A DNA stretch of 64,000 nucleotides from Alphaproteobacteria bacterium (lineage in GTDB: Bacteria; Pseudomonadota; Alphaproteobacteria; Caulobacterales; Maricaulaceae): NCBI GenBank assembly GCA_016124675.1, contig WGNG01000011.1, positions 1-64,000 of the forward strand, read 5' to 3'. The stretch's first letter is position 1. Each line of letters begins with the position of its first letter. A program made the position numbers and the translations under genes. Positions 13,060 through 30,014 of this stretch are shown here, piece by piece. The notes under the pieces were generated by a model. It was not told the DNA's origin. It was given only the letters and a program-made list of their open reading frames with translations, and ran no database searches.

Positions 13060-14373
13060 CTATTTTACTGATTTGCGAGCGGTCTCAGCCAGGTCGCCAA
13101 GAAAGACCCGCGCGCCTGCGAGGGCGGTGAATGCATAGGGGTTGAGAAATTGCCGGCCCCAAAACAGGTTGCGATCTACGGCTACGAGCTCGGCTTCATC
13201 GCAAACCGCATTCCAGTTTTCTGCGATGCAGTTGATTTGTTCCTTGACGATCTCGATCGCGTCAATCTCCGGCAAGAAAAAATGATGAGCTGCATCAATA
13301 CAGGTCGCGATGCGGCTGGAACGGTTATCGGCTGTGATGAGCATGGCCTGGCTGGCTTCGCCGCCTGACCTCCCTTGCGGGCAGATGTCATAGGCTGGCG
13401 TAAGTTCAAGCATGTTGCCGTCCCAGAACGCCGCATGATTGCGTGCGTGATCATCGGTATTTCCGGACAATATGTTGAAAACAATGCGGCAGAAGAGCTC
13501 CCGCAATGTCGCCTCCGGCTGGGTGAAGCGATGGCGAATGATGCCGGCCAGGTCAGCATAGCTCGCATAGCGAGCCATCATCTCGTCAAGGCCAAGCATG
13601 GTCAGCGCAGAGACCATCAGTCTGCGATGCCACCCGTTGTCAGCCTTCACCCGGTCAAAGCGTTCGACCAGCAGCACGTCCTTGCCGGATGCCTTCGCCA
13701 GCGAAACGCGCGCAACATTCAGGCCGCAGAGCGCGGCGAGCCGCATGGCGATAAATTCGGCTTTCACCATGCTATAGACGTCGGACGATGACGAGAACTT
13801 CGCGACGTGCTTTACGGCGGCCGCGTCGATGAGAGCCTTGGGGCGGGCGCCGCCAATCGAGCTGCCGTGATGCAGAGCCTGGTCAAGATCGGGCGAGAGG
13901 GGGATGCCCTGCTCTACCCGTTCGGCCGATTCCGTGAGCTCTTCGAGCGTTGCATTTGTCGGCGAGCGCGCAATATATTCCTTGGGTGACAGCTGAAAAT
14001 CGAGCGCTCCAATGCGATCTGAACCTGACTCCAGAAGGAAGGTCAGCTCAGAGAGCTCCAGAGCATCCAGCGCATTGCCCTTAATGCCAAGCTTGCGGTT
14101 GAGAATGACGCGTCGCCCCCAGGCATCAGGCGCCGCGTCACGCAGGCTGCCTGGCATTGTGAGGCCAGCGAGGAGCGGAAGCTCGCCTGCCTGAAGCGGA
14201 AGCTCGGGCAGGTAAAGCGCAATGGCATCCTCCCGTTCGAGATAGGTCTTGCCATAGTTGAAATGGACGACATTGTTATTGGCGCTCAAACGGCCGGCGA
14301 CGATGGGATCGGTAGCGCCAGGAAGCCAGACCCAGACATAAGCCTCCTCATATTTCAAAACCTTAGAAGTCAT
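13060..14373 (-). CDS. hipA: HipA-like type II toxin kinase
   Basis: 'GSSIGGARPKAL', 'AKFSSSSDVYSMVKAEFIAMRLAALCGLNVARVSL', 'LLVERFDR', 'FCRIVFNILSGNTDDHARNHAAFWDGNMLELTPAYDICPQ' HipA catalytic motifs; start at 14373 inferred by overlap with the upstream HTH gene. Confidence 0.93.
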   Translation of the reverse strand: MTSKVLKYEEAYVWVWLPGATDPIVAGRLSANNNVVHFNYGKTYLEREDAIALYLPELPLQAGELPLLAGLTMPGSLRDAAPDAWGRRVILNRKLGIKGNALDALELSELTFLLESGSDRIGALDFQLSPKEYIARSPTNATLEELTESAERVEQGIPLSPDLDQALHHGSSIGGARPKALIDAAAVKHVAKFSSSSDVYSMVKAEFIAMRLAALCGLNVARVSLAKASGKDVLLVERFDRVKADNGWHRRLMVSALTMLGLDEMMARYASYADLAGIIRHRFTQPEATLRELFCRIVFNILSGNTDDHARNHAAFWDGNMLELTPAYDICPQGRSGGEASQAMLITADNRSSRIATCIDAAHHFFLPEIDAIEIVKEQINCIAENWNAVCDEAELVAVDRNLFWGRQFLNPYAFTALAGARVFLGDLAETARKSVK

Positions 14374-14698
14374 CGAAGACCGTCTTTCGCGCCTTGTAGA
14401 CATGCTTGGGAAGGACGGCATTGCGATCGTCCATCCGGTCTGAAAGGCGATTGATGCCTTGCTCGTCACTATCGAAGAGCTTCACGCCAACCAGGGCGGC
14501 TGCTTCAAACATGATGCCGACTTCAACTTTGGGGTCACCGCTCTCCAGGCGCTGCAGCGTGCTGCGGGCAATGCCAAGGCGCTCGGCCAACTCCATCTGT
14601 GTCATTTTGCGCTGCTTGCGGCCATGGCGGATCATCTTCGCCAACAGGGCAATGGCCTCAGTGGTATAGCGAACATAGGCGCGCTTTGGCGCTGGCAT
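14363..14698 (-). CDS. hipB: HipB-like XRE antitoxin
   Basis: 'RHGRKQRKMTQMELAERLGIARSTLQRLESGDPKVEVGIMFEAAALVGVKLF' HTH_XRE; 11-nt overlap with hipA. Confidence 0.9.
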   Translation of the reverse strand: MPAPKRAYVRYTTEAIALLAKMIRHGRKQRKMTQMELAERLGIARSTLQRLESGDPKVEVGIMFEAAALVGVKLFDSDEQGINRLSDRMDDRNAVLPKHVYKARKTVFDDF

Positions 14699-14963: not shown

Positions 14964-16025
14964 TCAAGCCGCCCTTGCCGCCTCGCGCCGGATCCGCGCC
15001 GCCACACGCTCCGCAAACGCCGCACATCCCGCCGACCCGCCCAGATCCGCCGTCAGCGGCCCCGCGCGCAGTTCGGCCTCCAGCGCCGCCTCGATCGGCT
15101 CAGCTGCCCTCGTCTCACCCAGCCCGTGCCGCAGGAGCAGCGCGGCGCTGGCGATGGCGCCCGACGGGTTGGCCTTGTCCTGGCCGGCAATATCCGGCGC
15201 GCTGCCATGGATGGGCTCAAACAGGCCCGGTCCTTCCGCACCCAGGCTCGCCGAGCCCAGCAGGCCAATGGAGCCGGCGATCACGGCGGCTTCGTCCGAC
15301 AGGATATCGCCGAACAGGTTTTCGGTCAGGATGACGTCAAAGCGCGCCGGGTGGGTGACCAGCGCCATGGCGCACGAATCCACCAGCTGATGGTCCAGCG
15401 CCACGTCGGGAAAGTCTTTGGCCACCGCCTCCACCACCGCGCGCCAGAGCCGCGACGTGGCCAGCACATTGGCCTTGTCCACGCTGGTGACCCGCCCCGA
15501 CCGCCCGCGCGCCGCCTCAAAGGCGACGCGCGCAATGCGGCTGACCTCTTCGCGTGTGTAGACGCAGGTGTCGCTCGCGCGCTCGCGCCCCTCCTCGCGC
15601 GCGCCGAAATACAGCCCGCCGGTCAGCTCTCGTACGATCAGCACATCCGCCCCGCGCACGCGCTCGGGCCGCAGCGGCGAGACATCCTCAAGGCCGGGAA
15701 GCACTTTGACGGGCCGCAGATTGGCGAACAGGCCCAGCGCCTTGCGCAAGCCCAGCAAGCCGGCTTCCGGCCGCACCGCCGCGCCATCCCAGGCCGGGCC
15801 GCCCACGGCGCCCAGAAATACCGCATCGCTGGCTTTGGCTTTGGCGAGGGTTTCGGGCGGCAGCGGCTCGCCGCACGCGTCTATCGCTGCGCCGCCGAAA
15901 GGGGCTTCTTCGAAGATGAGCGTCAGGCCGCAAGCCTCACCCGCCGCCTCGAGGCACGCCCTCGCCGCGCGCGTCACTTCAGGCCCGATGCCGTCTCCCG
16001 GCAGCAGCAGAATACGCGCGCTCAT
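14964..16025 (-). CDS. leuB: 3-isopropylmalate dehydrogenase
   Basis: 'ILLLPGDGIGPEVTRAARACLEA', 'VTSVDKANVLATSRLWRAVVEAV', 'DVILTENLFGDILSDEAAVIAGSIGLLGSASLG', 'GLFEPIHGSAPDIAGQDKANP'. Confidence 0.97.
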   Translation of the reverse strand: MSARILLLPGDGIGPEVTRAARACLEAAGEACGLTLIFEEAPFGGAAIDACGEPLPPETLAKAKASDAVFLGAVGGPAWDGAAVRPEAGLLGLRKALGLFANLRPVKVLPGLEDVSPLRPERVRGADVLIVRELTGGLYFGAREEGRERASDTCVYTREEVSRIARVAFEAARGRSGRVTSVDKANVLATSRLWRAVVEAVAKDFPDVALDHQLVDSCAMALVTHPARFDVILTENLFGDILSDEAAVIAGSIGLLGSASLGAEGPGLFEPIHGSAPDIAGQDKANPSGAIASAALLLRHGLGETRAAEPIEAALEAELRAGPLTADLGGSAGCAAFAERVAARIRREAARAA

Positions 16026-16600
16026 GCGGCGCGGTCCGCTTCAAAGCGGGCGATGGCCTCGCCTTGGGCCAGGATATAGCCCATCGGGTCCACCCCCTCG
16101 ATCAGGCAGGTGCGGGCAAATCGGTCCAGCACGAAGCGGGCGGTGATATTGCCCGCAATGATTTGCCCCGCCGCCACGTCGATGGTCATCTCCAGCCCGT
16201 CGCGGTCCATCAGGGCGGCATGGGACGCCTCGTCGATCTCGCAGATCACCAGGCCGTTCTTGAGCGCGTTGGAGCGGAAAATGTCCGCCGCGCGCGTGGT
16301 CACCACGGCGCGAAAGCCGAAATCCTTCAGCGCCCAGGGCGCATGCTCGCGCGACGACCCGCAGCCGAAATTATGCCCCGCCACCAGAATGCGCACCTCG
16401 CCGTGAGGGATGTCATTGAGCCGGTGATCCTTTTTCGAGCCGTCGCCATGGAAGCGCCAGTCATGGAAACACGCCCCGCCCAGCGCGCCGCGCTCCGTCG
16501 TGGTCAGGAAGCGCGCCGGGATGATCTGGTCAGTGTCCACATTGGCGTCCGGCAGGGTGAAGGCGGGCGCGGTGACGGTGAGGATCGGCTCATTGCGCAT
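16022..16600 (-). CDS. leuD: 3-isopropylmalate dehydratase small subunit
   Basis: '[14 protein letters not shown]', '[48 protein letters not shown]'. Confidence 0.97.
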
Positions 16601-18011
16601 GGGAGGCCTCCAGAATGCGGCGCGGATCGGCGATGGCGCCGGCGACCGCCGAGGCGGCGGCCGTGGCCGGGCTCGCCAGCACGGTGCGCACGCCCTGACC
16701 CTGACGCCCGGCGAAATTGCGGTTGGAGGTGGAGACGATCAGCTCGCCCGGCCGCCCGCTATCGCCGTTCATGGCGATGCACATGGAACAGCCCGGCTCG
16801 CGCCATTCCGCCCCGGCGGTGCGGAAAATGGCGTCGAGGCCTTCAGCCTCCGCCGCCCGCTTGACCGCTTCGGAGCCCGGCACGACCAGCATGCGCACGC
16901 CCGGCTTGACGCAGCGCCCGGCCATCACCGACGCCGCCTCGCGCAGATCGGACAGGCGCGCATTGGTGCACGAGCCGATGAAGACCGCGTCGATCTTCTC
17001 GCCCATGAGCGCCTCGCCCGGCTTGAAGCCCATATAGGCCAGCGCCTCGGTCATTCTGGCGGTGGACGGCGCAGGCGGGCTGGAATCCACCGGCGCGGCC
17101 ATGTCCGGACTGTCGCCCCAGGTGATCATGGGCGCCAGGCGCGAGGCGTCGAGGCGCACTTCGGCGTCAAAAACTGCGCCCGCATCGCTGCGCAGCTGCG
17201 CCCAGCGCGCCTTGGCCGCTTCGAACGCCGCCCCCTTGGGGGCATGGGCGCGGCCCTGCAGATAGCGGAACGTGGTTTCGTCAGGCGCAATCATCCCGGC
17301 GCGCGCGCCCGCCTCGATGGACATGTTGCACACCGTCATGCGCTCTTCCATCGACAGCGCCTCGATGGCCGGGCCGGCATATTCAATGACATGCCCCGCC
17401 GCCCCGCCTGCGCCCAGCTCGGCGATGATGGCCACGATCAAGTCCTTCGCGCCCACGCCCACACGCAGCTCGCCATCGACATGCACGCGCATGGTTTTGG
17501 GCTTGCGCTGCAACAGGCACTGGGTCGCCAGCACATGGCCCACTTCCGTGGTGCCGATCCCGAAAGCGAGCGCCCCGAACGCGCCATGGGTGGAGGTGTG
17601 GCTGTCGCCGCAGACTATGGTCTGGCCGGGCTGGGTCAGGCCCAGCTCCGGCCCGATAACGTGCACAATGCCCCGGTCCGCACTGTCCCAGCCGGCCAGG
17701 CGGATGGCGTGGCGCCTGCAATTGGCCTCCATGGTCTCCACCTGGTGGCGCGCCGCCGCGCTGGCATAGACGGGCCGGGCGCCGGCTGCGCGCGGCGTGG
17801 TGGGGGTGGAGTGATCCAGCGTCGCATAGGTCAGATCGGGCCGGCGCACGCTTAAGGACCGCGCATCCAGCTCGGCGAAGGCCTGGGGGCTCGTGACTTC
17901 ATGGATCAGGTGCAGATCGACATAGATCAGCGCCGGCGCATCCTCGCGTTCCGGCGTGACCACATGGGCGTCCCAGACCTTGTCGAACAGGGTTCTAGAT
18001 GGCGACGGCAT
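16590..18011 (-). CDS. leuC: 3-isopropylmalate dehydratase large subunit
   Basis: '[12 protein letters not shown]', '[34 protein letters not shown]', '[17 protein letters not shown]', '[10 protein letters not shown]'; ATG at 18011 chosen from LeuC N-terminus. Confidence 0.96.
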
Positions 18012-18963
18012 GGCTGGCCTCCTTGTCGGCGCTGACCGGACGGACCGGCTCCAGCCAGCCCCATTCATCCTTGGTGGTTCCGTCAAACAGGCCGAAGAAC
18101 CGCTCCTGGATCAGGCGCGTCACCGGCCCGGCGCCCGCGGCGCGGGTGGTCTTGTCATCCACCGAGCGGATCGGGGTCACTTCAGCGGCGGTGCCGGTGA
18201 AGAAAGCCTCGTCGCACAGATACAGCATCTCGCGCGGCAGGGCCTGCTCGACCACCTCAATGCCCTCCTTGCGCGCCAGCGTGATCACCGTGTCGCGCGT
18301 GATGCCCTGCAGGATGGAGCTCGCCGCCGGCGGCGTCATCAGCTTGCCGTTCTTGACCAGGAACAGGTTTTCGCCCGCCCCTTCGGACAGGCGCCCATCC
18401 ACGTCGAGCCCGATGCCTTCGGCATAGCCACGCGACTTGGCCTCGCGCGAGATGAGATAGCTCGACAGATAATTGCCCCCCGCCTTGGCGCCGGTGGGGG
18501 CGGTATTGGGCGCGAGGCGATTCCACGACGAGACCATCACGTCCACCCCGCGCGTGCGCGCGTCCTCGCCGAGATACGCCCCCCACGGAAAGGCGGCGAT
18601 GAACAGCTCGGTGGGCGTTTCTTTCGCCGGCACAACCCCGATCGAGCCATAGCCGATAAAGGCGATGGGCCGGATATAGGCCGAGCTCAGACCGTTGCGC
18701 GCCACCAGCGCCTTGCAGGCGGTGACGATCTCGTCCTCGCAGAACGGGATGTCGACCGAGTAGATGCGCGCTGAATCAATGAGGCGCCGGACATGGTCGC
18801 GCACCCGGAAACCCGCCGGACCCGACGGCGTGTCATAGACGCGGATGCCCTCGAACATGGAGGTGCCGTAGTGCAGCCCGTGCGACAGCACATGCACCTG
18901 GGCGTCCGCCCAGCGGATATAGGCGCCATTGCGCCAGATATAGTCGGTCGTCGTGATAGCCAT
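17995..18963 (-). CDS. ilvE: Branched-chain amino acid aminotransferase
   Basis: '[39 protein letters not shown]', '[17 protein letters not shown]', '[47 protein letters not shown]'; ATG at 18963 with aagga upstream. Confidence 0.96.
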
Positions 18964-18976
18964 GTGTGAAGGTCCT

Positions 18977-20554
18977 TCAGGCGGCGGCGTTGGCGCGGGC
19001 TTCCCGGCGCCGGCGCACGGCAAGGGCGTTGTTGAGTGCGTCGATATAAGCCCCGACGCAGGCGGGCAGGATGTCGCGGGCGCGGGCGCGGCCGGGGAAG
19101 CGCTCCCCGTCCACCTCCGCTTCCAGCTCGACCAGAACGTCTGCGCCCTGGCCGTCCGCGCCGGTCTCGTCCGGATCGGCGGCGATGTATTGCATGTCGA
19201 TCCCGGCCACGCGCGCGGGCGCGTCCATGATCTGGCTCACCGCCTGATAGGCGGCGTCCAGCGCGCCGGGCGCGCGGGCGAGATCGCTGACCCGGCCCCG
19301 CACGGGATGATCCAGCTCGATGCGCGCCACCGGCTGGTCCTGGCGCGAGATGGGCGCCCGGATTTCCAGCCGCGACAGCGTCCACATCTGGTCGCTGGCA
19401 TCACCATCCAGCCGCGCCAGGATCGCCGCCAGCCGGGCTGAATCCACCGTGCCGACCTCGTCAGCCACCGCCTTGAAGGCGTCAAACGCCTGCGCAAGCG
19501 CCTCGCCCTCCAGCGTCCAGCCGAGCGCTGCGGCGCGCGCGGCCAGCGCGTGCTTGCCCGAATGCTTGCCCAGCACCAGCGCATTGGACGCCAGGCCCAC
19601 ATCCTCGGGCTTCATGATCTCATAGGTCTCGCGGTTCATCAGCACGCCGTGCTGGTGGATGCCCGATTCATGCGCGAAGGCATTGGCGCCCACGATGGCC
19701 TTGTTGCGCGGCGGATGGGTGTTGGTCACCTGGGACAGGGTGCGCGTCGCGGCCATGATCTGGCGCGTGTCGATCCCGGTGGTCAGGCCGAACTGGTCCT
19801 TGCGGGTGCGCAGCGCCATCACCGCGTCCTCCAGCGCGCAATTGCCCGCCCGCTCGCCGATACCGGTCAGCGCGCACTCGATCTGGCGCGCCCCGCCGCG
19901 CACGGCGGCCAGCGAATTGGCCACCGCCATGCCCAGATCATCATGGCAATGGGTGGAGAAGATCACGCCCTCGGGGCGCTCCACCGCCTCGCCCAGATGG
20001 CGGAACAGGTCCATCATCTCCTCCGGCGTGGCATAGCCGACCGTGTCGGGAACGTTCAGCGTGCCCGCCCCCGCTCCGGCGGCCACCGACAGGGCCTCCA
20101 CCAGAAACGCCCGCTCGGTGCGGATCGCATCTTCAGCGGAGAACTCCACATCATCGGCGAACTCGCGCGCATAGGCGACCATCTCGGCGATCCGGGTCAG
20201 GATCTCGTCCCGGCTCATTTTCAGCTTGAATTCGCGGTGCAGGGGGCTGGTGCCCAGAAACACATGGATGCGCTTCTTCGCCGCCGCTTTCAGCGCCTTG
20301 CCCGCCGCCTCGATATCGCCTTTGGCCGCCCGCGCCAGCGAGCAGATGACGGGGCCCTCCACCTCACCCGCAATGCGCTCGACGGCGCGGAAGTCACCCG
20401 GCGAGGCGATGGCGAAGCCCGCCTCGATGACGTCGACTTTCAGCGCCGCCAGCGCTTTGGCCATTTTCAGCTTGCCGGCCTCGCTCATGGAGAAGCCGGG
20501 CGCCTGTTCGCCATCGCGCAGCGTGGTGTCAAAAATGATGACCCGGTCGCTCAC
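18977..20554 (-). CDS. leuA: 2-isopropylmalate synthase
   Basis: 'VIIFDTTLRDGEQAPGFSMS', 'FSTHCHDDLGMAVANSLAAVRGGARQIECALTGIGERAGN', 'HQHGVLMNRETYEIM', C-terminal LeuA allosteric-type region. Confidence 0.97.
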   Translation of the reverse strand: MSDRVIIFDTTLRDGEQAPGFSMSEAGKLKMAKALAALKVDVIEAGFAIASPGDFRAVERIAGEVEGPVICSLARAAKGDIEAAGKALKAAAKKRIHVFLGTSPLHREFKLKMSRDEILTRIAEMVAYAREFADDVEFSAEDAIRTERAFLVEALSVAAGAGAGTLNVPDTVGYATPEEMMDLFRHLGEAVERPEGVIFSTHCHDDLGMAVANSLAAVRGGARQIECALTGIGERAGNCALEDAVMALRTRKDQFGLTTGIDTRQIMAATRTLSQVTNTHPPRNKAIVGANAFAHESGIHQHGVLMNRETYEIMKPEDVGLASNALVLGKHSGKHALAARAAALGWTLEGEALAQAFDAFKAVADEVGTVDSARLAAILARLDGDASDQMWTLSRLEIRAPISRQDQPVARIELDHPVRGRVSDLARAPGALDAAYQAVSQIMDAPARVAGIDMQYIAADPDETGADGQGADVLVELEAEVDGERFPGRARARDILPACVGAYIDALNNALAVRRRREARANAAA

Positions 20555-20814
20555 GACGCCGCCTCCAGCGCCTGCGGCCAGGCCGGCGCCACCGCCACGA
20601 CCTCGTACATCTTGGCGATCTGGGCGCAGACCGTCTCCACCTGGCGGCCCGGATCGCGCGGCGACACCTCAAGGGTCAGGCGCGCGGCCGCGCCCGGACG
20701 CGCCGGCGGCAGGGACATCGCACGCACGACGAAACCGCGCCGCTCCACCAGGCCGATAAGGCGCAGCACCGCGCCCTCGCCGGGACGAAAATCAATATCG
20801 ATGCGGCAGGTCAT
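20551..20814 (-). CDS. ilvN: Acetolactate synthase small-subunit/ACT protein (short IlvN/IlvM type)
   Basis: 87 aa ACT-like 'RIDIDFRPGEGAVLRLIGLVERRGFVVRAMSL...'; translationally coupled (ATGA overlaps) between the large subunit and leuA. Confidence 0.85.
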   Translation of the reverse strand: MTCRIDIDFRPGEGAVLRLIGLVERRGFVVRAMSLPPARPGAAARLTLEVSPRDPGRQVETVCAQIAKMYEVVAVAPAWPQALEAAS

Positions 20815-22520
20815 GACGCCTCCATCATGTCGGAATTGGATTTGCCCGGCGGCACCAGCGGCCAGACGTTTTCGGCCGGGTCGATGCGCACATGGGCCAG
20901 GATCGGCCCGCGCGTCTTGAGCAGGCGGTCAATGGCGCCGGGCACATCGGCGCGCCGGTCCACGGTGAACGCCTCGATCCCGAAGGCGCGGGCCACTTCA
21001 GCGAAATCGGGATTGTCGTAGAGGTCGACCTCGGAGAAATTCTGCTCGTAGAACAGCTCCTGCCACTGGCGCACCATGCCCAGCTGGGAATTGTCCAACA
21101 GCACGATCTTCAGCGGCAGGCCATAACGGCGCAGCGTCGCCAGCTCCTGGATATTCATCATGATCGAGCCGTCGCCGGTCACCGTCACCACGGTCGCGTC
21201 CGGCTCGGCGAACAGCGCGCCGATGCCCGCCGGAATGCCGTAGCCCATGGCGCCGAGCCCGGCGCTGGTCAGGTGAGCCTGGGGCCTTGAGAAGCGGCAG
21301 TGCTGGGCCACCCACATCTGGTGCTGGCCCACATCGCAGGTCACGATGAAACGGTCGCCGGCCTGGCGCGACAGCGCGTTGAGCAAGGCCGGGGCATAGA
21401 CGCCCGCGCCCGGAGCGTCATAGCGGAAGGCCCAGTCGGCGGCGTTGCGGGCGCAGCGCGTCCGCCACGCGGCGATGTCCAGCCGCCCCGGCTCCAGCTG
21501 GGTCAGGATGGCCGCGATATCGCCGGGCAGCGCCACATTGGCGCGGCGCAGCTTGGAAATCTCCGACGCGTCGCCATCGATATGGATCACCTGCGCGCCC
21601 GGCGCGAACGTGTCGAGCTTGCCGGTGGCGCGATCATCAAAACGCGCACCCACACAGATCAAGAGATCGCTTTCCATCACCGCCGTGTTGGCCGCGCGCG
21701 TGCCGTGCATGCCCAGCATGCCCAGGAAGTCCTCGCGCTCGGTGGGCAGGCCGCCCAGACCCTTCAGCGTCGCCACCGCCGGGATGCGGGTGCGGTCATG
21801 GAAATCGCGCAAGGCTGCCTCAGCCCGGGCGATGGCAATTCCGCCGCCAAAATACAGAACCGGGCGGCGCGCCGCGCGGATCAGGGCTTCAGCCGCCCGC
21901 ATGGACGCCGGATCAGGCGATGCATAACCGGCGGGCGCCGGGACCGGTCCCGCTGGGGGGAACGGCCCGAGGGCTTGGGTGACGTCCTTGGGCAGGTCGA
22001 TCAGGACCGGCCCCGGGCGCCCGCCCTTCGCCAGCGCGAACGCTTCGGCGAAGATCTCAGGGATGTCGGCAGCGCTGCGCGCAATGAAGGAATGCTTCAC
22101 GATCGGCAGGGTGACGCCGAACACGTCAATCTCCTGGAACGCATCAGTGCCCATCAGCGACGTGCCCACCTGGCCGGTGATCGCCACCATGGGCACTGAA
22201 TCCATGAAGGCGTTGGCGATGCCGGTGATCAGATTGGTGGCGCCCGGCCCGGACGTGGCCAGGCACACGCCCGGCTCGCCCGACACCCGGCCATAGGCGT
22301 CCGCCGCCAGCGCCGCCGCCTGCTCATGGCGCACCAGCACGTGCTTCAGGCGTGAGCCGGGCAGCGCGTCATAGACCGGCATGATCGCCCCGCCGGGATA
22401 GCCGAACACATAGTCCACGCCCTCACGCTCCAGCGCCTCGACGACCAGATGGGCGCCGGTGCGCGCAGCCGGTTTCGCGGCCAGATCATGCGGCGGGGGC
22501 GGGGCGGCGGCGGTCAGCAT
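20811..22520 (-). CDS. ilvB: Acetolactate synthase large subunit
   Basis: 'VEALEREGVDYVFGYPGGAIMPVYDAL', 'VCLATSGPGATNLITGIANAFMDSVPMVAITGQV', 'GDGSIMMNIQELATLRRYGLPLKIVLLDNSQLGMVRQWQELFY'; ATG 22520 chosen. Confidence 0.96.
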   Translation of the reverse strand: MLTAAAPPPPHDLAAKPAARTGAHLVVEALEREGVDYVFGYPGGAIMPVYDALPGSRLKHVLVRHEQAAALAADAYGRVSGEPGVCLATSGPGATNLITGIANAFMDSVPMVAITGQVGTSLMGTDAFQEIDVFGVTLPIVKHSFIARSAADIPEIFAEAFALAKGGRPGPVLIDLPKDVTQALGPFPPAGPVPAPAGYASPDPASMRAAEALIRAARRPVLYFGGGIAIARAEAALRDFHDRTRIPAVATLKGLGGLPTEREDFLGMLGMHGTRAANTAVMESDLLICVGARFDDRATGKLDTFAPGAQVIHIDGDASEISKLRRANVALPGDIAAILTQLEPGRLDIAAWRTRCARNAADWAFRYDAPGAGVYAPALLNALSRQAGDRFIVTCDVGQHQMWVAQHCRFSRPQAHLTSAGLGAMGYGIPAGIGALFAEPDATVVTVTGDGSIMMNIQELATLRRYGLPLKIVLLDNSQLGMVRQWQELFYEQNFSEVDLYDNPDFAEVARAFGIEAFTVDRRADVPGAIDRLLKTRGPILAHVRIDPAENVWPLVPPGKSNSDMMEAS

Positions 22521-22524
22521 GGCC

Positions 22525-23541
22525 CTATTCCGCCTGACCGGCATTGGCGCCGGGCTGCAGCCACGCCATGCGCGCGCGCAGGCGCGCCCCGGTTCTCTCG
22601 ATGTCCTGCTCCAGGTCCTTGCGCAGCAGGGCGTCATATTTCGGCTTGCCGGCCTGGTTTTCCAGGATCCAGTCGCGGGCGAAGGCGCCCGTCTGAATAT
22701 CGGTCAGCACCTCGCGCATGCGCGCCCGGGTTTCGGCATTGATGACGCGCGGGCCGGAGACGAGATCGCCATACTTGGCGGTCTCCGAGATGAAGTCATG
22801 CATGCGCGCGAGCCCGCCCTCATACATCAGGTCCACGATCAGCTTGAGCTCGTGCAGGCATTCGAAATAGGCGATCTCGGGCTGGTAGCCGGCCTCCACC
22901 AGCGTCTCGTAGCCGGCCGCCACCAGCTCGCTGGCGCCGCCGCACAGCACTGCCTGCTCGCCGAACAGGTCGGTTTCGGTCTCCTCGGCGAAGGTGGTCT
23001 CCAGGGCGCCGCCCGTCGTGCCGCCATTGCCCTTGCAATAGGCCAGCGCCCGCTCGCGCGCCTGCCCCGACGCGTCCTGCCACACCGCAAACAGGCTGGG
23101 CACGCCGCGCCCGATCTCGAACTCCCGGCGCACCAGATCGCCCGGACCCTTGGGCGCCACCAGGATGACGTCGATATCGGCGCGCGGCCGCACCTGGCCG
23201 TAATGGATGGAGAAGCCGTGGGCGACCATCAAGGTCTCGCCCGGCGCCATGTTGGGCGCGATATCGGTCTCATAGACCGTCTTGTGCGTCATGTCCGGCG
23301 TCAGCATGGCGATGAACGTCGCCCGCCTGGCGGCGTCAGCCGGCGTGAACACCTCAAACCCGTCCGCCGCAGCCCGGGCTGCTGCCTTGCCGCCGGGGCG
23401 GGCGCCGACAATCACCCCATGCCCGCTGTCGCGCAGATTGCGGGCATGGGCCCGGCCCTGGCTGCCATAGCCGATAATGGCGATGGGACCGGGCTGGATC
23501 GCCTCGGCGCGGGCGTCGTCTTCTGTGTAGATGCGGGTCAA
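22525..23541 (-). CDS. ilvC: Ketol-acid reductoisomerase
   Basis: '[28 protein letters not shown]', '[50 protein letters not shown]'. Start inferred as TTG at 23541 (LTRIYTEDD) preceded by ggag; the ORF-track extension to 23871 reads through the attenuator and is rejected. Confidence 0.94.
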
Positions 23542-23572
23542 TGTGCAGTCTCCAGGGTGATGACAGGGCAAG

Positions 23573-23599
23573 AAAAAACCCCCGCTCGGGGAGCGGGGG
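23573..23599 (-). promoter_or_regulatory. Transcription attenuator terminator of the ilv leader
   Basis: Minus strand cccccgctc-ccc-gagcggggg followed directly by tttttt, located 31 nt after the leader peptide stop and upstream of ilvC. Confidence 0.9.
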
Positions 23600-23630
23600 T
23601 CCTTGGCGTCTTGGGGAAGTTCAGCTTCCG

Positions 23631-23756
23631 TCAGACAGGCGCCGCCGCTCCGCGAAGGGAGGTGATAAGGACGACGACAAGAAGGACGAACGACGACGCC
23701 GCCACGGCCTGGAGCCGGGCGTTCGCGGTCTTCGCAATGGCCTTCGCGTCGCGCAT
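23631..23756 (-). CDS. ilv operon leader peptide (attenuator peptide)
   Basis: 41 codons + stop: [41 protein letters not shown]; Val/Leu/Ile run VLLVVVLI just upstream of an intrinsic terminator before ilvC. Below the size cutoff of the ORF track. Confidence 0.9.
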
Positions 23757-24069
23757 GGCGGGCCGTCTCGACTGGGTGGGCGTCCAGGACCGTCCTGAAC
23801 GCAGCTGACGCGGCGATGCTGCATGTGCGGCCTCGCCGACCTGTCGAAAAGCCTAGGGGCGATAACGCCACCTTGGCAACAGGGAAAATGTACGGACCTT
23901 CGAAAAAAATTTTTCGATATAATTTTCAATTGCTTACGAGTGTATTTCCACTGCCGCCCGACGAAATTGTGTCTTTTGGGCCACATCAGGCTGGTTGACG
24001 CGGTGTGGAAAAGCCGCCCATCGTGGCGTCAGCGCTGAGCAGGTGCAGCGCAAATTTTCGGAGCCCGAC

Positions 24070-24219
24070 ATGGCCTTCGCCGCCGTCCTTCGTGGTCTTG
24101 ATCTGGCAGGCGCCAACGCGCTGGCGGGTCTTGGCGTGCGCCTCGACGGCCTCATGCTCCTCGTCTCCACGACCACGGCCACCACCACCATTACAGGCGG
24201 GCGGTGCGGCGCGGGCTGA
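24070..24219 (+). CDS. thrL: thr operon leader peptide (attenuator peptide)
   Basis: ...MLLVSTTTATTTITGGRCGAG*; six Thr in STTTATTTIT (seven Thr/Ile positions within TTTATTTIT). ATG at 24070 (49 aa, ggag SD) or internal ATG at 24154 (21 aa). Confidence 0.88.
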   Translation: MAFAAVLRGLDLAGANALAGLGVRLDGLMLLVSTTTATTTITGGRCGAG

Positions 24220-24247
24220 GGAACAACTCTCACACCTGACCGACCCG

Positions 24248-24278
24248 ACCCGCTCCCGGCCCCGGAAGCGGGTTTTTT
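24248..24278 (+). promoter_or_regulatory. Transcription attenuator terminator of the thr leader
   Basis: acccgctcccggccccggaagcgggt followed by tttttt, 28 nt after the leader stop and ~40 nt before the thrA ATG. Confidence 0.88.
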
Positions 24279-24319
24279 CTTGGCTGAATTTCCGGCCACC
24301 CAACAAGGACCCGACGATC

Positions 24320-26065
24320 ATGGACCCCGCTCTTGCCCCATCCGCCGCCCGCCCGCTTTGCGTGCTGAAATTCGGCGGCTCGGTGCTCACCACCCGGGCT
24401 GACTACGCCCTGGCCGGCGCCGAAGCCTACCGCCACGTGCGCGACGGCGAGACCGTGATCATCATCGTGTCCGCGCTGCAGGGCGAAACCGACGCCCTGT
24501 TCGCCGAGGCTGAGGCCGCTGGCGCGGGCGCCTGTCCTGCCATGACGGCGCGTCTTGTCCGGCTGGGCGAATACCGCTCTGCGGCGCTGATGGGGCTGGA
24601 GCTCGCCCGGCTCGGCGTGCGCGCACGCGTGCTCGACCCGCACGAGATCGCGCTGGAAGCCGAAGGCGATCCGCTGGACGCCGATCTTGTGCGCCTTGAC
24701 CGAAAGCGGCTTGATGCGGCGCTGCGCGATGTCGAGGCGGTCGTCCTGCCCGGCTTCACCGCTGGTCATGCCCGCCACGGCGCCGTGACGCTGGGCCGGG
24801 GCGGCACGGACCTGACGGCGGTCTTCTTCGCCGCGCAGGCCGGGGCGCGGCGCGTGCGCCTGATCAAGGATGTGGACGGGGTCTATACCGATGATCCGGC
24901 CCGCGATCCGGCCGCGCGCCGCTATGACCGGCTGGATTACGACGCCGCCCTGAAAGCCAGCCGCGGCCTGATCCAGCCCAAGGCGATCGAGGCGGCCCGC
25001 GCCGCCGGGCTGGAGATCGAGATCGCCGCCATGGGCGCCGGTCACGCCACCCGCGTCGCGCCCGGCCCCGCCGTCATCGGCGCGCCGGTGCGCGCGCGCC
25101 CCTTGCGCGTGGCGCTTCTGGGATGCGGCGCGGTGGGATCAGGCGTGCTCGATCACCTCATCGCCCGGCCTGACCTGTTCGTGCTCAATCCGGTCCTGGT
25201 GCGCCGCCCGGAGCGCCGCGCCGATGACCGGCGCGCCGCCTTCACCGCAAACGCCGACCGCGCGCTGGCCGATGCCCCGGACCTGGTCATCGAGGCGATG
25301 GGCGGGGTCGATCAGCCTGCAGGGCTGATGCTGCGCGCCCTGGCGGGCGGCGCCCATGTCGTCACCGCCAACAAGGCCGCCCTGGCCGCCCGGTACGAGG
25401 CGCTGAAGGCCGGCGCGCGCATGGCGGACCGGCGCTTGCAATACGCCGCCAGCGTCGGCGGCGGCGTGGTTGTCCTGGAAGCGCTTGATCGCCTCAGGAA
25501 CCGGGGCGTCCTCAGCGTGGAGGGCGTCATGAACGGCACCGGTAATTTCATCCTCAGCCGTCTGCGCGCCGGCGCGGCGTTCGACGATGCGGTGGCTGAA
25601 GCCCAGCGCCTTGGCTTTGCCGAAGCCGACCCCAGCGCCGATGTCGAGGGTCTCGACGCCGCCGACAAGCTGTCGCTCCTCATCCGAGAGGCGTTCGGCA
25701 GAACCGTCCCGCCCGGAGCCATCGCCAGGCAATCCTTGCGTGACGCCACGCCCGCCCGCATCGCCGACGCGGCGTCCCGCGGCGAGGTCTTCAAGCAGGT
25801 CGGACGCTGCGCCCTGAAGCCTGACGGATCGGTGGAGGCGAGCGTGCGCGTCATGAGCCTGCCCCTCGCCCATCCGCTTGCAGGCGCGGTGAACGAGGAG
25901 AACCGTTTTGTGGTCACGCTGGCGGACGGGTCGGTCCACGCGCTGTACGGCAAGGGCGCCGGGCGCTGGCCGACGGCGGCCGCCGTGTTTGCAGACGTGA
26001 TGGACATTGCGCGCGCTTGCGCGTGTGATGGGCCCCGGCGCGCCGCCCTGGCCGCCAGCGCCTGA
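24320..26065 (+). CDS. thrA: Fused aspartate kinase-homoserine dehydrogenase lacking apparent ACT domains
   Basis: AK motifs 'VLKFGGSVLTT', 'GRGGTDLTAVFFAAQAGARRVRLIKDVDGVYTDDP'; HSD motifs 'VALLGCGAVGSGVLDHL', 'VVTANKAALA', 'GVMNGTGNFILSRL', 'EADPSADVEGLDAADKLSLL'. 581 aa from ATG 24320. Confidence 0.93.
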   Translation: MDPALAPSAARPLCVLKFGGSVLTTRADYALAGAEAYRHVRDGETVIIIVSALQGETDALFAEAEAAGAGACPAMTARLVRLGEYRSAALMGLELARLGVRARVLDPHEIALEAEGDPLDADLVRLDRKRLDAALRDVEAVVLPGFTAGHARHGAVTLGRGGTDLTAVFFAAQAGARRVRLIKDVDGVYTDDPARDPAARRYDRLDYDAALKASRGLIQPKAIEAARAAGLEIEIAAMGAGHATRVAPGPAVIGAPVRARPLRVALLGCGAVGSGVLDHLIARPDLFVLNPVLVRRPERRADDRRAAFTANADRALADAPDLVIEAMGGVDQPAGLMLRALAGGAHVVTANKAALAARYEALKAGARMADRRLQYAASVGGGVVVLEALDRLRNRGVLSVEGVMNGTGNFILSRLRAGAAFDDAVAEAQRLGFAEADPSADVEGLDAADKLSLLIREAFGRTVPPGAIARQSLRDATPARIADAASRGEVFKQVGRCALKPDGSVEASVRVMSLPLAHPLAGAVNEENRFVVTLADGSVHALYGKGAGRWPTAAAVFADVMDIARACACDGPRRAALAASA

Positions 26066-26077
26066 AGGAGACGCCCC

Positions 26078-27025
26078 ATGATCCAGTCCGCCACGGCCAG
26101 CGCGCCCGCCAGCATCGGCAATGTCTCGGTCGGGTTCGACGTTCTGGGCCAGGCCTTTGACGCCGTGCGCGACACCATCACCGCCGAGCGCGTGCGCGGC
26201 TCGGGCGTGACGCTCGGGTCCGTGGGCGGGCTCGCCGACGCCCTGCCCGACAGTCTTGAATCCAACACCGCCCTCGCCGCTGCGGGTGCGGTCCTGTCTG
26301 CCGCGCGCGCGCCCTTCGCCGTGCGCATCTCGATCCACAAGGGCGTGCCGATCAGCGCCGGCATGGGCGGGTCCGCCGCCTCTGCGGTCGCGGCGGCTGC
26401 GGCGGTGAACGCCCTGCTCGACACGCCCTTCGCGGTGGAGGACCTGCTGCCGTTCGCGCTCAGGGGCGAGGCGGTGTCCGCCGACCCGCCGCCCTGGGAC
26501 AATGTGATGGCGAGCCTGCATGGCGGACTGGTGATCGCCGCGCGCCTGGACCCGGCCCTGATCCGCCGCTTGCCCGCGCCGCAAGGCGTCGTGGCGATCC
26601 TCCTGCACCCGGATGTGCGCATCGAGACCCGCGCCGCGCGCGGCATCCTCAAACCGTCCGTGCCGCTGCACACCGCCGTCGAGCACGCCCGGCGCATCAG
26701 CGCCTTCACGCTGGGCTGCGCAACCAACGATTTCGATCTGGTGCGCGCCGGATTTGAAGACATTCTCATCGAACCCCAGCGCAGATACCTGCTGCCAGAA
26801 CTGCCCGCCGTGAAGAAGGCGGCGATGGAGGCCGGCGCGCTGGGATGCTCCTTCTCCGGATCGGGTCCATCCGTCTTCGCCTGGGCGCTCGTCGGCGACG
26901 CCGACGCTGTGGAAGCCGCCATGACCGGCGCCTTCCGGCAGGCCAGACGCCAGGCGCGGGCCTATCGCGCGCCGCTGGACAGCGCCGGTGTGCGCATCGA
27001 GCAGCGGGCGGAGGCGGCGGCGTGA
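26078..27025 (+). CDS. thrB: Homoserine kinase (GHMP family)
   Basis: 'ASAPASIGNVSVGFDVLGQAFD', 'VPISAGMGGSAASAVAAAAAVNALL' GHMP ATP motif, 'EAGALGCSFSGSGPSVFAW'. Confidence 0.96.
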   Translation: MIQSATASAPASIGNVSVGFDVLGQAFDAVRDTITAERVRGSGVTLGSVGGLADALPDSLESNTALAAAGAVLSAARAPFAVRISIHKGVPISAGMGGSAASAVAAAAAVNALLDTPFAVEDLLPFALRGEAVSADPPPWDNVMASLHGGLVIAARLDPALIRRLPAPQGVVAILLHPDVRIETRAARGILKPSVPLHTAVEHARRISAFTLGCATNDFDLVRAGFEDILIEPQRRYLLPELPAVKKAAMEAGALGCSFSGSGPSVFAWALVGDADAVEAAMTGAFRQARRQARAYRAPLDSAGVRIEQRAEAAA

Positions 27026-28329
27026 ATTTCGTCTCCACGCGCCGCGCTGGCGCGCCGGTCCGGTTTGAGGACGCCATCCTCGCCGGCACGGCGCAGGATG
27101 GGGGTCTTTATGTACCCGAACGCCTGCCTGACGACACCCTCAGCGCCCTCACTGGCACAGAATGTATCGCACAGACCGCGCGCATCCTGCTGCAGCCCTT
27201 CGTGGAAGGCGGCCCCCTCGCGCCCGCGCTGGACGCGCTGTGCGACGAAGCGTTCGACTTTGACGCCCCGCTTGTAACCCCCGATCCCGCGCGCCCGGGC
27301 CTTGTGGCGCTGGAATTGTTTCACGGCCCCACCGGCGCGTTCAAGGATTTTGGCGCCCGCTTCCTGATCGCCTGCCTCAGCCGGCTCGCCGATCAGGATG
27401 GACCGCGCACCGTGCTGGCCGCCACCTCGGGAGATACCGGCGGCGCGGTCGGATCCGCCACGCAAGGCCGCGCCGGCGTGCGCGCCATCATCTTGTTTCC
27501 AAAGGGCCGCGTCTCCGCTTTTCAGCGCCACCAGCTGACCTGCTGGGATGCGCCGGTGAGCGCGCTGGAGGTCGAAGGCGATTTCGACGCCTGCCAGGCC
27601 CTTGTGAAAGCGGCCTTCGCTGATGCCGGTCTCGCCGCGCGCCACCGGCTGACCAGCGCCAATTCGATCAATCTCGCCCGCCTTCTGCCCCAGGGCGCGC
27701 ATCTCGCCCGCGCCTGCGCACAGGTCCGCTCGCGCACCGGCATCGCGCCGGGCCTGATCATCCCCACCGGCAATCTCGGCCATGGCGTCGCCGCGCTCTA
27801 CGCCCGCGCCATGGGCGCGTCCATCGGCCCTGTGATCCTGGCGACCAACGCCAACGCCGCCCTTGCCGACTGGGCCGCCACCGGGACTTACAGGCCCCGG
27901 CCCTCGGTCGCCACGCTCGCCAACGCCATGGATGTGGGCGCCGCCAATAATTTCGAACGCCTCGCCGCCTTGCCCGGCCTGTCCGGCAGCGTATCCGTGG
28001 AGCGCGTCGAGGACGACGCGATCCGGGCGCGCATCATCAGCGACTATATCGCGTCAGGCTATGTCTGGTGTCCCCATTCGGCGACGGGCGCCGAAGCCTA
28101 TGCGCGCCTCGGCGCGGCAGAACGCAATGCCCGCCCGTGGATCGTTGCGGCCACAGCCCACCCGTACAAATTCGCCGACATTGTCGAGCCGCTCATCGGC
28201 CGCGCCATCGCCCCGCCCCCGGCGCTGGAGGCCGTTCTGTCACGCCCCTCGCGCGCGATCCTTGCGCAGGCCGATCTGCCCGCCCTTACCCGCCATCTCG
28301 CTTCACTGGAAGAGCCCGTCCTGTCATGA
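27022..28329 (+). CDS. thrC: Threonine synthase
   Basis: '[36 protein letters not shown]', '[16 protein letters not shown]', '[15 protein letters not shown]', '[20 protein letters not shown]'; GTG start at 27022 overlaps thrB stop. Confidence 0.96.
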
Positions 28330-30014
28330 CCGCCAAACGCCCCTCCCACACCCTGATCCAGGGCCCGGCCCGCGCCCCGGCCCGCGCCATGCTGCGCGCG
28401 GCCGGCTTTGACGATGAGCGGCTCGCCAAGCCGCTGATCGCCATCGTCAATACCTGGACCAGCGTCACGCCGTGCAACATGCACCTGGCGAGCCTCGCCG
28501 ATCATGCCCGCGCCGGGATCGAGGCTGCGGGCGGCACGGCGGTGGATTTCAACACCATCGTCGTCACCGACGGCATCGCCATGGGCACCGAGGGCATGCG
28601 CGCCAGCCTTATGAGCCGCGAGTGCGTCGCCGATTCCGCCGAGCTTGCCGTACGCGGCCACTGCCTCGACGCGGTTCTGTTCCTGGTCGGCTGCGACAAG
28701 ACCCTGCCCGGCGCCGCCATGGCGGCGGCCCGGCTCGATCTGCCCAGCGTCATCCTCTATGGCGGCTCGATCATGCAGGGCCGGCTCGGCGGCAAGAACC
28801 TGACCATCCAGGACGTGTTCGAGGCTGTGGGCGCCTGCGCCGCCGGGCGCATCAGCGAAGCCGAACTGATCGAGGTGGAGAAGGCCGCCTGCCCCGGCGC
28901 CGGCGCCTGCGGCGGCCAGTTCACCGCCAACACCATGGCGCTGGCGCTGGGCGTCATGGGCCTCAGCGCCATGGCGCTCAATGATCTACCAGCCGTCGAC
29001 CCCGGCAAGCCCGGAGCCGCCGAGGCCGCCGGGCGTCTCATCGTCGACGCGCTCCATGCCGGGCGCCATGCGCGCAGCCTGATCACGCCTGCCTCGCTCC
29101 GCAACGCCGCCGCCGCCGTCACCGCCACCGCAGGCTCCACCAATGCGATCTTGCATCTGCTCGCCATCGCGCGCGAGGCGGGCGTGCCCACGGACGCCTT
29201 CAACATTGATGATTTTGACGCCATCTCGCGCGCCACGCCGGTGATCGCCGACCTGAAACCCGGCGGGCGCTATATGGCGCCGGACATGAGCGCGGCGGGC
29301 GGCACGCGGCTGCTGGTCCAGCGGCTCCAGCGATCGGGTCATCTGACCGATGCGCCGACCATCACAGGCCGGACACTGTTCGAAGAGGCCGCCCTCGCCG
29401 TGGAAGCGCCCGGCCAGGACGTGATTCGCAGCGCCGCCGATCCGGTGAAGGCGCGCGGCGGGTTCGGCGTGCTCTATGGCGATCTGGCGCCTGAAGGCTG
29501 CGTGGTGAAGCTCGCCGGCCATGAGCGCCTGTTCGTCTCCGGTCCCGCCCGGGTGTTCGATAGCGAGGAGGCCTGTTTCGAGGCGGTCAGTCAGGGCCGC
29601 ATCGCGAAAGGCGATGTGGTGGTGATCCGCTATGAGGGACCCGCCGGCGGCCCCGGCATGCGCGAGATGCTGGCGGTCACGGCGGCGATCCAGGGCGCCG
29701 GGCTCGGCGATGACGTGGCGCTGATCACGGATGGACGGTTTTCCGGGGCCACCTACGGCTTCATGGTGGGTCATGTCGCCCCGGAAGCGGCGCGCGGCGG
29801 GCCGCTGGCCTTCATTCGCGACGGAGACATCATCACTATCGATGTGGACGCGCGCCGGCTCGATGTGGACGCCGATCTCGCCGCCCGCATGGCGCGCGGC
29901 TTCATCGCCCCCAAGCCGCGCTATCCCACCGGCGCCTACGCCAAATACGCCGCGCTGGTGGCCTCGGCGTCACACGGGGCCGTGACCGGCTTTCCCTACG
30001 ACGCGCCAGGCTGA
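28326..30014 (+). CDS. ilvD: Dihydroxy-acid dehydratase
   Basis: '[18 protein letters not shown]', '[31 protein letters not shown]', '[21 protein letters not shown]', '[18 protein letters not shown]', '[24 protein letters not shown]'; ATGA overlap with thrC. Confidence 0.96.

Follow-up and report, generated by a model that had tools for sequence, protein, structure and literature searches.

The gap of about 780 bases between the divergent operons that begin with ilvC and thrA, within the 64,000-nucleotide stretch of DNA analysed here (the window), very probably holds two autonomous translation-coupled transcription attenuators whose transcription would run outward, away from an AT-rich centre that they share. 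Each strand of the gap carries a leader open reading frame (ORF) and a terminator. On the minus strand a Val/Leu/Ile-type leader ORF is followed by its terminator and then by ilvC from 23541; on the plus strand a Thr-type leader ORF is followed by its terminator and then by thrA from 24320 (Table 1).

Table 1. Coordinates of the genes, leaders, terminators and putative control sites at the ilvC/thrA locus, numbered along the window.
Feature	Coordinates	Strand	Basis or remark
leuA, ilvE, leuC, leuD, leuB, downstream part of minus operon	14964..20554	-	leuD and leuB identified from gene order and resemblance
ilvM-like small subunit, 87 aa	20551..20814	-	named from position and resemblance
ilvG-type acetolactate synthase large subunit	20811..22505	-	NF006524 above cut-off
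ilvC, first gene of minus operon	22525..23541	-	profile match
ilv attenuator terminator (segments 3:4), -21 kcal/mol	23577..23601	-	U tract to about 23572
ilv leader ORF, 41 aa, control run FVLLVVVLI	23631..23756	-	sequence, relatives, shuffles
ilv attenuator segment 2, GGAGCGG, in leader ORF	23645..23651	-	conserved; pairs with terminator-arm CCGCTCC 23596-23590
putative ilv promoter TTGCCA-N18-TAGGCT	23850..23879	-	TTGCC[AG]-N18-TAnnnT in 8/15 loci only
TGTACGGAC, candidate regulator site	23889..23897	+	relatives have an identical or similar sequence
AT-rich centre between the two putative -35 boxes	23895..23945		highest AT fraction in a 50-bp stretch, 0.64-0.82 across 15 loci
putative thr promoter TTGACG-N18-CATCGT	23995..24024	+	TTGAC[GC]-N18-[CG]AnnnT in 15/15 loci
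thr leader ORF, 49 aa, MAFAAVLRGLDLAGANALAGLGVRLDGLMLLVSTTTATTTITGGRCGAG then stop, control run STTTATTTIT	24070..24219	+	sequence, relatives
thr attenuator segment 2, GGGCGG	24199..24204	+	pairs with terminator-arm CCGCTC 24250-24255; weak in window alone
thr attenuator terminator (segments 3:4), -18 kcal/mol	24247..24274	+	U tract to about 24278
thrA, aspartokinase-homoserine dehydrogenase fusion, 581 aa	24320..26065	+	no ACT domain match
thrB and thrC	26078..28329	+	profile matches
ilvD	28326..30014	+	start overlaps thrC stop; apparently only ilvD in genome

Gene identities rest on profile matches for ilvC, ilvG, leuA, leuC, thrA, thrB, thrC and ilvD, and on a match to a Pfam aminotransferase family for ilvE. 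Judged from spacing and overlaps, the minus-strand set ilvC-ilvG-ilvM-like-leuA-ilvE-leuC-leuD-leuB probably forms one operon and the plus-strand set thrA-thrB-thrC-ilvD another. The other ilvD-family match in the genome is a single 618-aa ORF, which its length and sequence lead us to read as a phosphogluconate dehydratase. For ilvA, the highest-scoring sequence in the genome does not reach the family cut-off, and a stop interrupts its region of similarity. ThrA consists of kinase and dehydrogenase domains with only about 30 residues between them; because related open frames are of similar length, its lack of an ACT domain match may be a trait of the group. A second ketol-acid reductoisomerase-like gene (L140:7379-8368; G000:C20:50393-51364) is 46% identical to the ilvC of the window, and no leader was found upstream of it. 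The minus-strand ORF at 13060-14469 gave a weak, below-cut-off match to a HipA-family model.

The first-pass annotation had described two pairs of leader peptide and terminator, ilv on the minus strand and thr on the plus strand. All four elements are present, and all four recur in each of 15 divergent loci, found in Oceanicaulis, Alkalicaulis, Glycocaulis, Marinicauda and other relatives: the window itself, eleven titled genome records (L031-L038, L042, L044, L065) and three genomes (L003, L004, L009). What differs among these loci is the first part of each leader ORF, together with spacing and flanking sequence, while the control runs, the ORF ends including their stop codons and the terminators are kept, so that the comparison with relatives proposed in the first-pass annotation came out in its favour. 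When the region was shuffled with dinucleotide composition preserved, Thr-rich ORF ends matching the thr leader arose in 1 of 3000 shuffles and Ile/Leu/Val-rich ends matching the ilv leader in 5 of 3000; for neither leader did any shuffle also contain a downstream terminator. The ilv leaders moreover favour codons that neighbouring genes seldom use, CTT providing 45 of 69 Leu codons (6% in the neighbours), ATT 17 of 24 Ile codons (13%) and GTA 16 of 81 Val codons (2%), counts which, like the conservation, are drawn from related sequences and are not independent.

Alternative pairing was assessed on folds of a truncated RNA that starts at the leader-ORF end and stops at the terminator loop, and so stands for the transcript before the 3′ terminator arm (segment 4) exists. 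In the minimum-energy folds the 5′ terminator arm paired with the end of the leader ORF in 23/23 ilv loci and in 34/35 thr loci. Against shuffled upstream sequence, 21 of 23 loci had an ilv 2:3 duplex with p <= 0.05, and 8 of 35 taken singly had a thr duplex at that level; for the thr antiterminator of the window alone (duplex p = 0.30, fold z = -1.3) pairing was not better than chance, in a G-rich region where shuffled sequences pair well too. The ilv 2:3 helix also covaries: 98.1% of cells were paired, compared with 45-67% when slid, and at two pairs both sides change, including a G-C to A-U exchange in Euryhalocaulis. Covariation was counted for the ilv helix only, the MAFFT alignment of the thr loci having put segment 2 wrongly in some rows. 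The mutually exclusive antiterminators expected of such switches thus exist in the folds on both sides and covary for ilv, but the thr pairing in the window stays at chance level. Taken together, the attenuator reading appears well supported by sequence, more firmly for ilv than for thr.

A scan with the sigma-70 consensus found no promoter in the region, and the promoters in Table 1 are an interpretation, read off conserved alignment columns after those columns had been seen. The first-pass annotation had described the centre of the gap as AT-rich and as a plausible shared promoter zone. The centre is indeed AT-rich, here and in relatives, but the putative promoters flank it on either side, which leaves a shared promoter within it unsupported. 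Inside the AT-rich centre lies an inverted repeat, TCGAAAAA-AA-TTTTTCGA (TCGAAAAAAATTTTTCGA), at 23900-23917. Together with TGTACGGAC it spans 23889-23917, relatives carry a TGTnCGnAC-like sequence, and the stretch is a possible regulator or UP-element site.

According to the model, transcription of the minus operon would be set by the supply of charged branched-chain tRNAs. When charged Leu-, Val- or Ile-tRNA is short, a ribosome would stall in the control run of the leader so that GGAGCGG, in the last part of the ORF, stays accessible for pairing with CCGCUCC in the 5′ terminator arm; the terminator would be blocked and ilvC-ilvG-ilvM-leuA-ilvE-leuC-leuD-leuB transcribed. When charged tRNA is plentiful, a ribosome at the stop codon would cover GGAGCGG and the GC-rich terminator would end transcription. 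Equivalent logic would operate on the plus strand, with Thr (and Ile) codons and the pair GGGCGG/CCGCUC, to control thrA-thrB-thrC and the presumably co-transcribed ilvD. Since the apparently only ilvD sits in the thr operon, full synthesis of Val, Leu and Ile would need both switches open.

Both leaders align with their E. coli counterparts thrL and ilvL, and the resemblance covers the peptide as well as the terminator. The E. coli thrL-thrABC system likewise has a Thr/Ile-rich leader ending in GAG and a stop, a terminator with a CCCGC core and a thrA fusion downstream; it differs in that its leader has 21 aa rather than the 49 found here, and in that here ThrA has no ACT domain match, ilvD has been added and a second attenuator lies divergent. 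The E. coli ilvL-ilvXGMEDA system similarly has a Val/Leu/Ile leader with GAA near its end, a CCCCCGC terminator arm and an ilvG-type gene downstream, whereas here ilvC stands first, followed by ilvG, the ilvM-like gene and leuA-ilvE-leuCDB, with ilvD on the other operon. The thr and ilv terminators of E. coli have a common CCCGCACC core where the two here have CCCGCTCC; for ilv the core reads CCGCTCC here and CCGCACC in E. coli. An alphaproteobacterial ilvB leader peptide, mentioned as previously described in a paper that cites Vitreschak et al. 2004 for it (PMC1273637), is by that description a branched-chain leader and would belong to the same class. In Corynebacterium glutamicum the mechanism of a ribosome-mediated attenuator is established for ilvBNC (PMC11857589), and its control codons CUU and GUA are codons enriched in the ilv leaders here; unlike the present arrangement, it is actinobacterial, with a 15-aa leader, a transcription start 1 nt from the start codon and a single attenuator.

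Judged by these resemblances, each attenuator is of an established type, with thrL or ilvL as its E. coli relative. What looks new is their divergent pairing, conserved in a group of marine bacteria, with the apparently only ilvD on the thr side. Thirty sampled proteobacteria other than the source carried an ilvG-type synthase above cut-off, and 28 of them an E. coli-type thrA; thrA and ilvG stood together in none of the 28, the listed coordinates putting them either on different contigs or at distances above 200 kb. Because the E. coli leaders and terminators are similar and the two genes lie apart in all 28, the apparent novelty resides in the pairing, which is, on this sampling, lineage-specific. 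A literature search found no description of a divergent thr/ilv attenuator pair, which is weak evidence of absence, as most subscription journals were outside its scope.

The pairing is not the only arrangement among relatives. Euryhalocaulis and Sphingomonas deserti have the two attenuated operons in tandem on one strand, Maricaulis and Woodsholea have thr and ilv attenuators at separate loci, and Parvularcula and Marinicaulis have an ilv leader before ilvD, with no thr leader found. In a ThrA tree the divergent loci clustered (two changes needed, one possible). The Sphingomonas ThrA was placed among those of the divergent loci and therefore suggests lateral transfer, with the caution that long branches may affect its position. 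Among 15 genomes of the genus searched, 10 have the divergent locus, and in one thrA and its ilvC are split between contigs. Four (G001, G003, G004, G010) are without a fused thrA and gave no acetolactate synthase over the family cut-off in a search covering five genomes of the genus and the window's own genome; on these grounds the locus is patchy within the genus, and auxotrophy is possible in the four. On a Planctomycetota-labelled contig (L071:200-1300), a Thr-rich ORF with a terminator after it lies some 260 nt ahead of thrA, and represents either a real attenuator or a binning error.

How much meaning the layout itself carries is a separate matter. Two ordinary attenuators could have been set head to head by a chance rearrangement, each working as proposed in a layout without regulatory meaning, and we lean slightly towards this explanation. 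It fits the tandem and separate arrangements just described, which indicate that neither attenuator needs adjacency, and the putative promoter of its own on each side. Weighing against it, all 15 loci, which come from a diverged group, have kept the divergent arrangement and an AT-rich centre, an observation that speaks of retention rather than function. A coupled module, in which a released leader RNA or segment 2 would pair in trans with the terminator arm of the other attenuator and so link the operons, is very improbable. Its basis is the CCCGCT/AGCGGG core common to both terminators and, with the pattern used, present nowhere else in the genome. Such likeness needs no coupling, because E. 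coli and several other sampled proteobacteria have like thr and ilv cores far apart, and the notion that the CCCGCT core is special to the ilvC/thrA locus was dropped for the same reason.

Two further explanations would replace ribosome-mediated control itself. A ligand-binding riboswitch, a T-box or an attenuator worked by an RNA-binding protein would have a terminator/antiterminator architecture of the kind common to such classes, yet we find any of these scarcely credible: a search of the region against Rfam returned no leader family, T-box or riboswitch, its sole match being a sub-threshold one in which anti-hemB scored 24.5 bits (cut-off 49.5) on the ilv terminator, and runs of control codons fitting the products of each operon stand directly before segment 2. 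Least credible of all is that the terminators alone matter, the leader ORFs being either spurious or extensions of ilvC and thrA at the N-terminal end, for although the region is GC-rich and both gene frames stay open upstream for some distance in the window, codon runs and stop codons are kept while flanks diverge, none of the 3000 shuffles reproduced a leader with its terminator, and the relatives argue against extensions, since the distance from leader to gene among them falls into all three classes modulo 3 and in many of them an in-frame stop lies 3-36 nt before the gene.

Returning to the two autonomous attenuators, the first-pass annotation had further proposed that starvation signals from both tRNA pools are integrated at this one locus. 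That proposal is partly supported: the integration that can be read in the sequence would lie in the placement of the apparently only ilvD behind the Thr attenuator, but each operon has its own putative promoter, each attenuator would act in cis, and relatives carry the two in tandem or apart.

If the model is true, this is a natural case in which a single control region would serve two linked pathways through two amino-acid sensors, and the placement of ilvD would tie branched-chain synthesis to the threonine switch as well. With no ACT domain match in ThrA, leader control may carry more of the regulatory load. The layout is conserved, with named cultured relatives such as Alkalicaulis satelles and Glycocaulis albus among its carriers, which makes the proposal directly testable.
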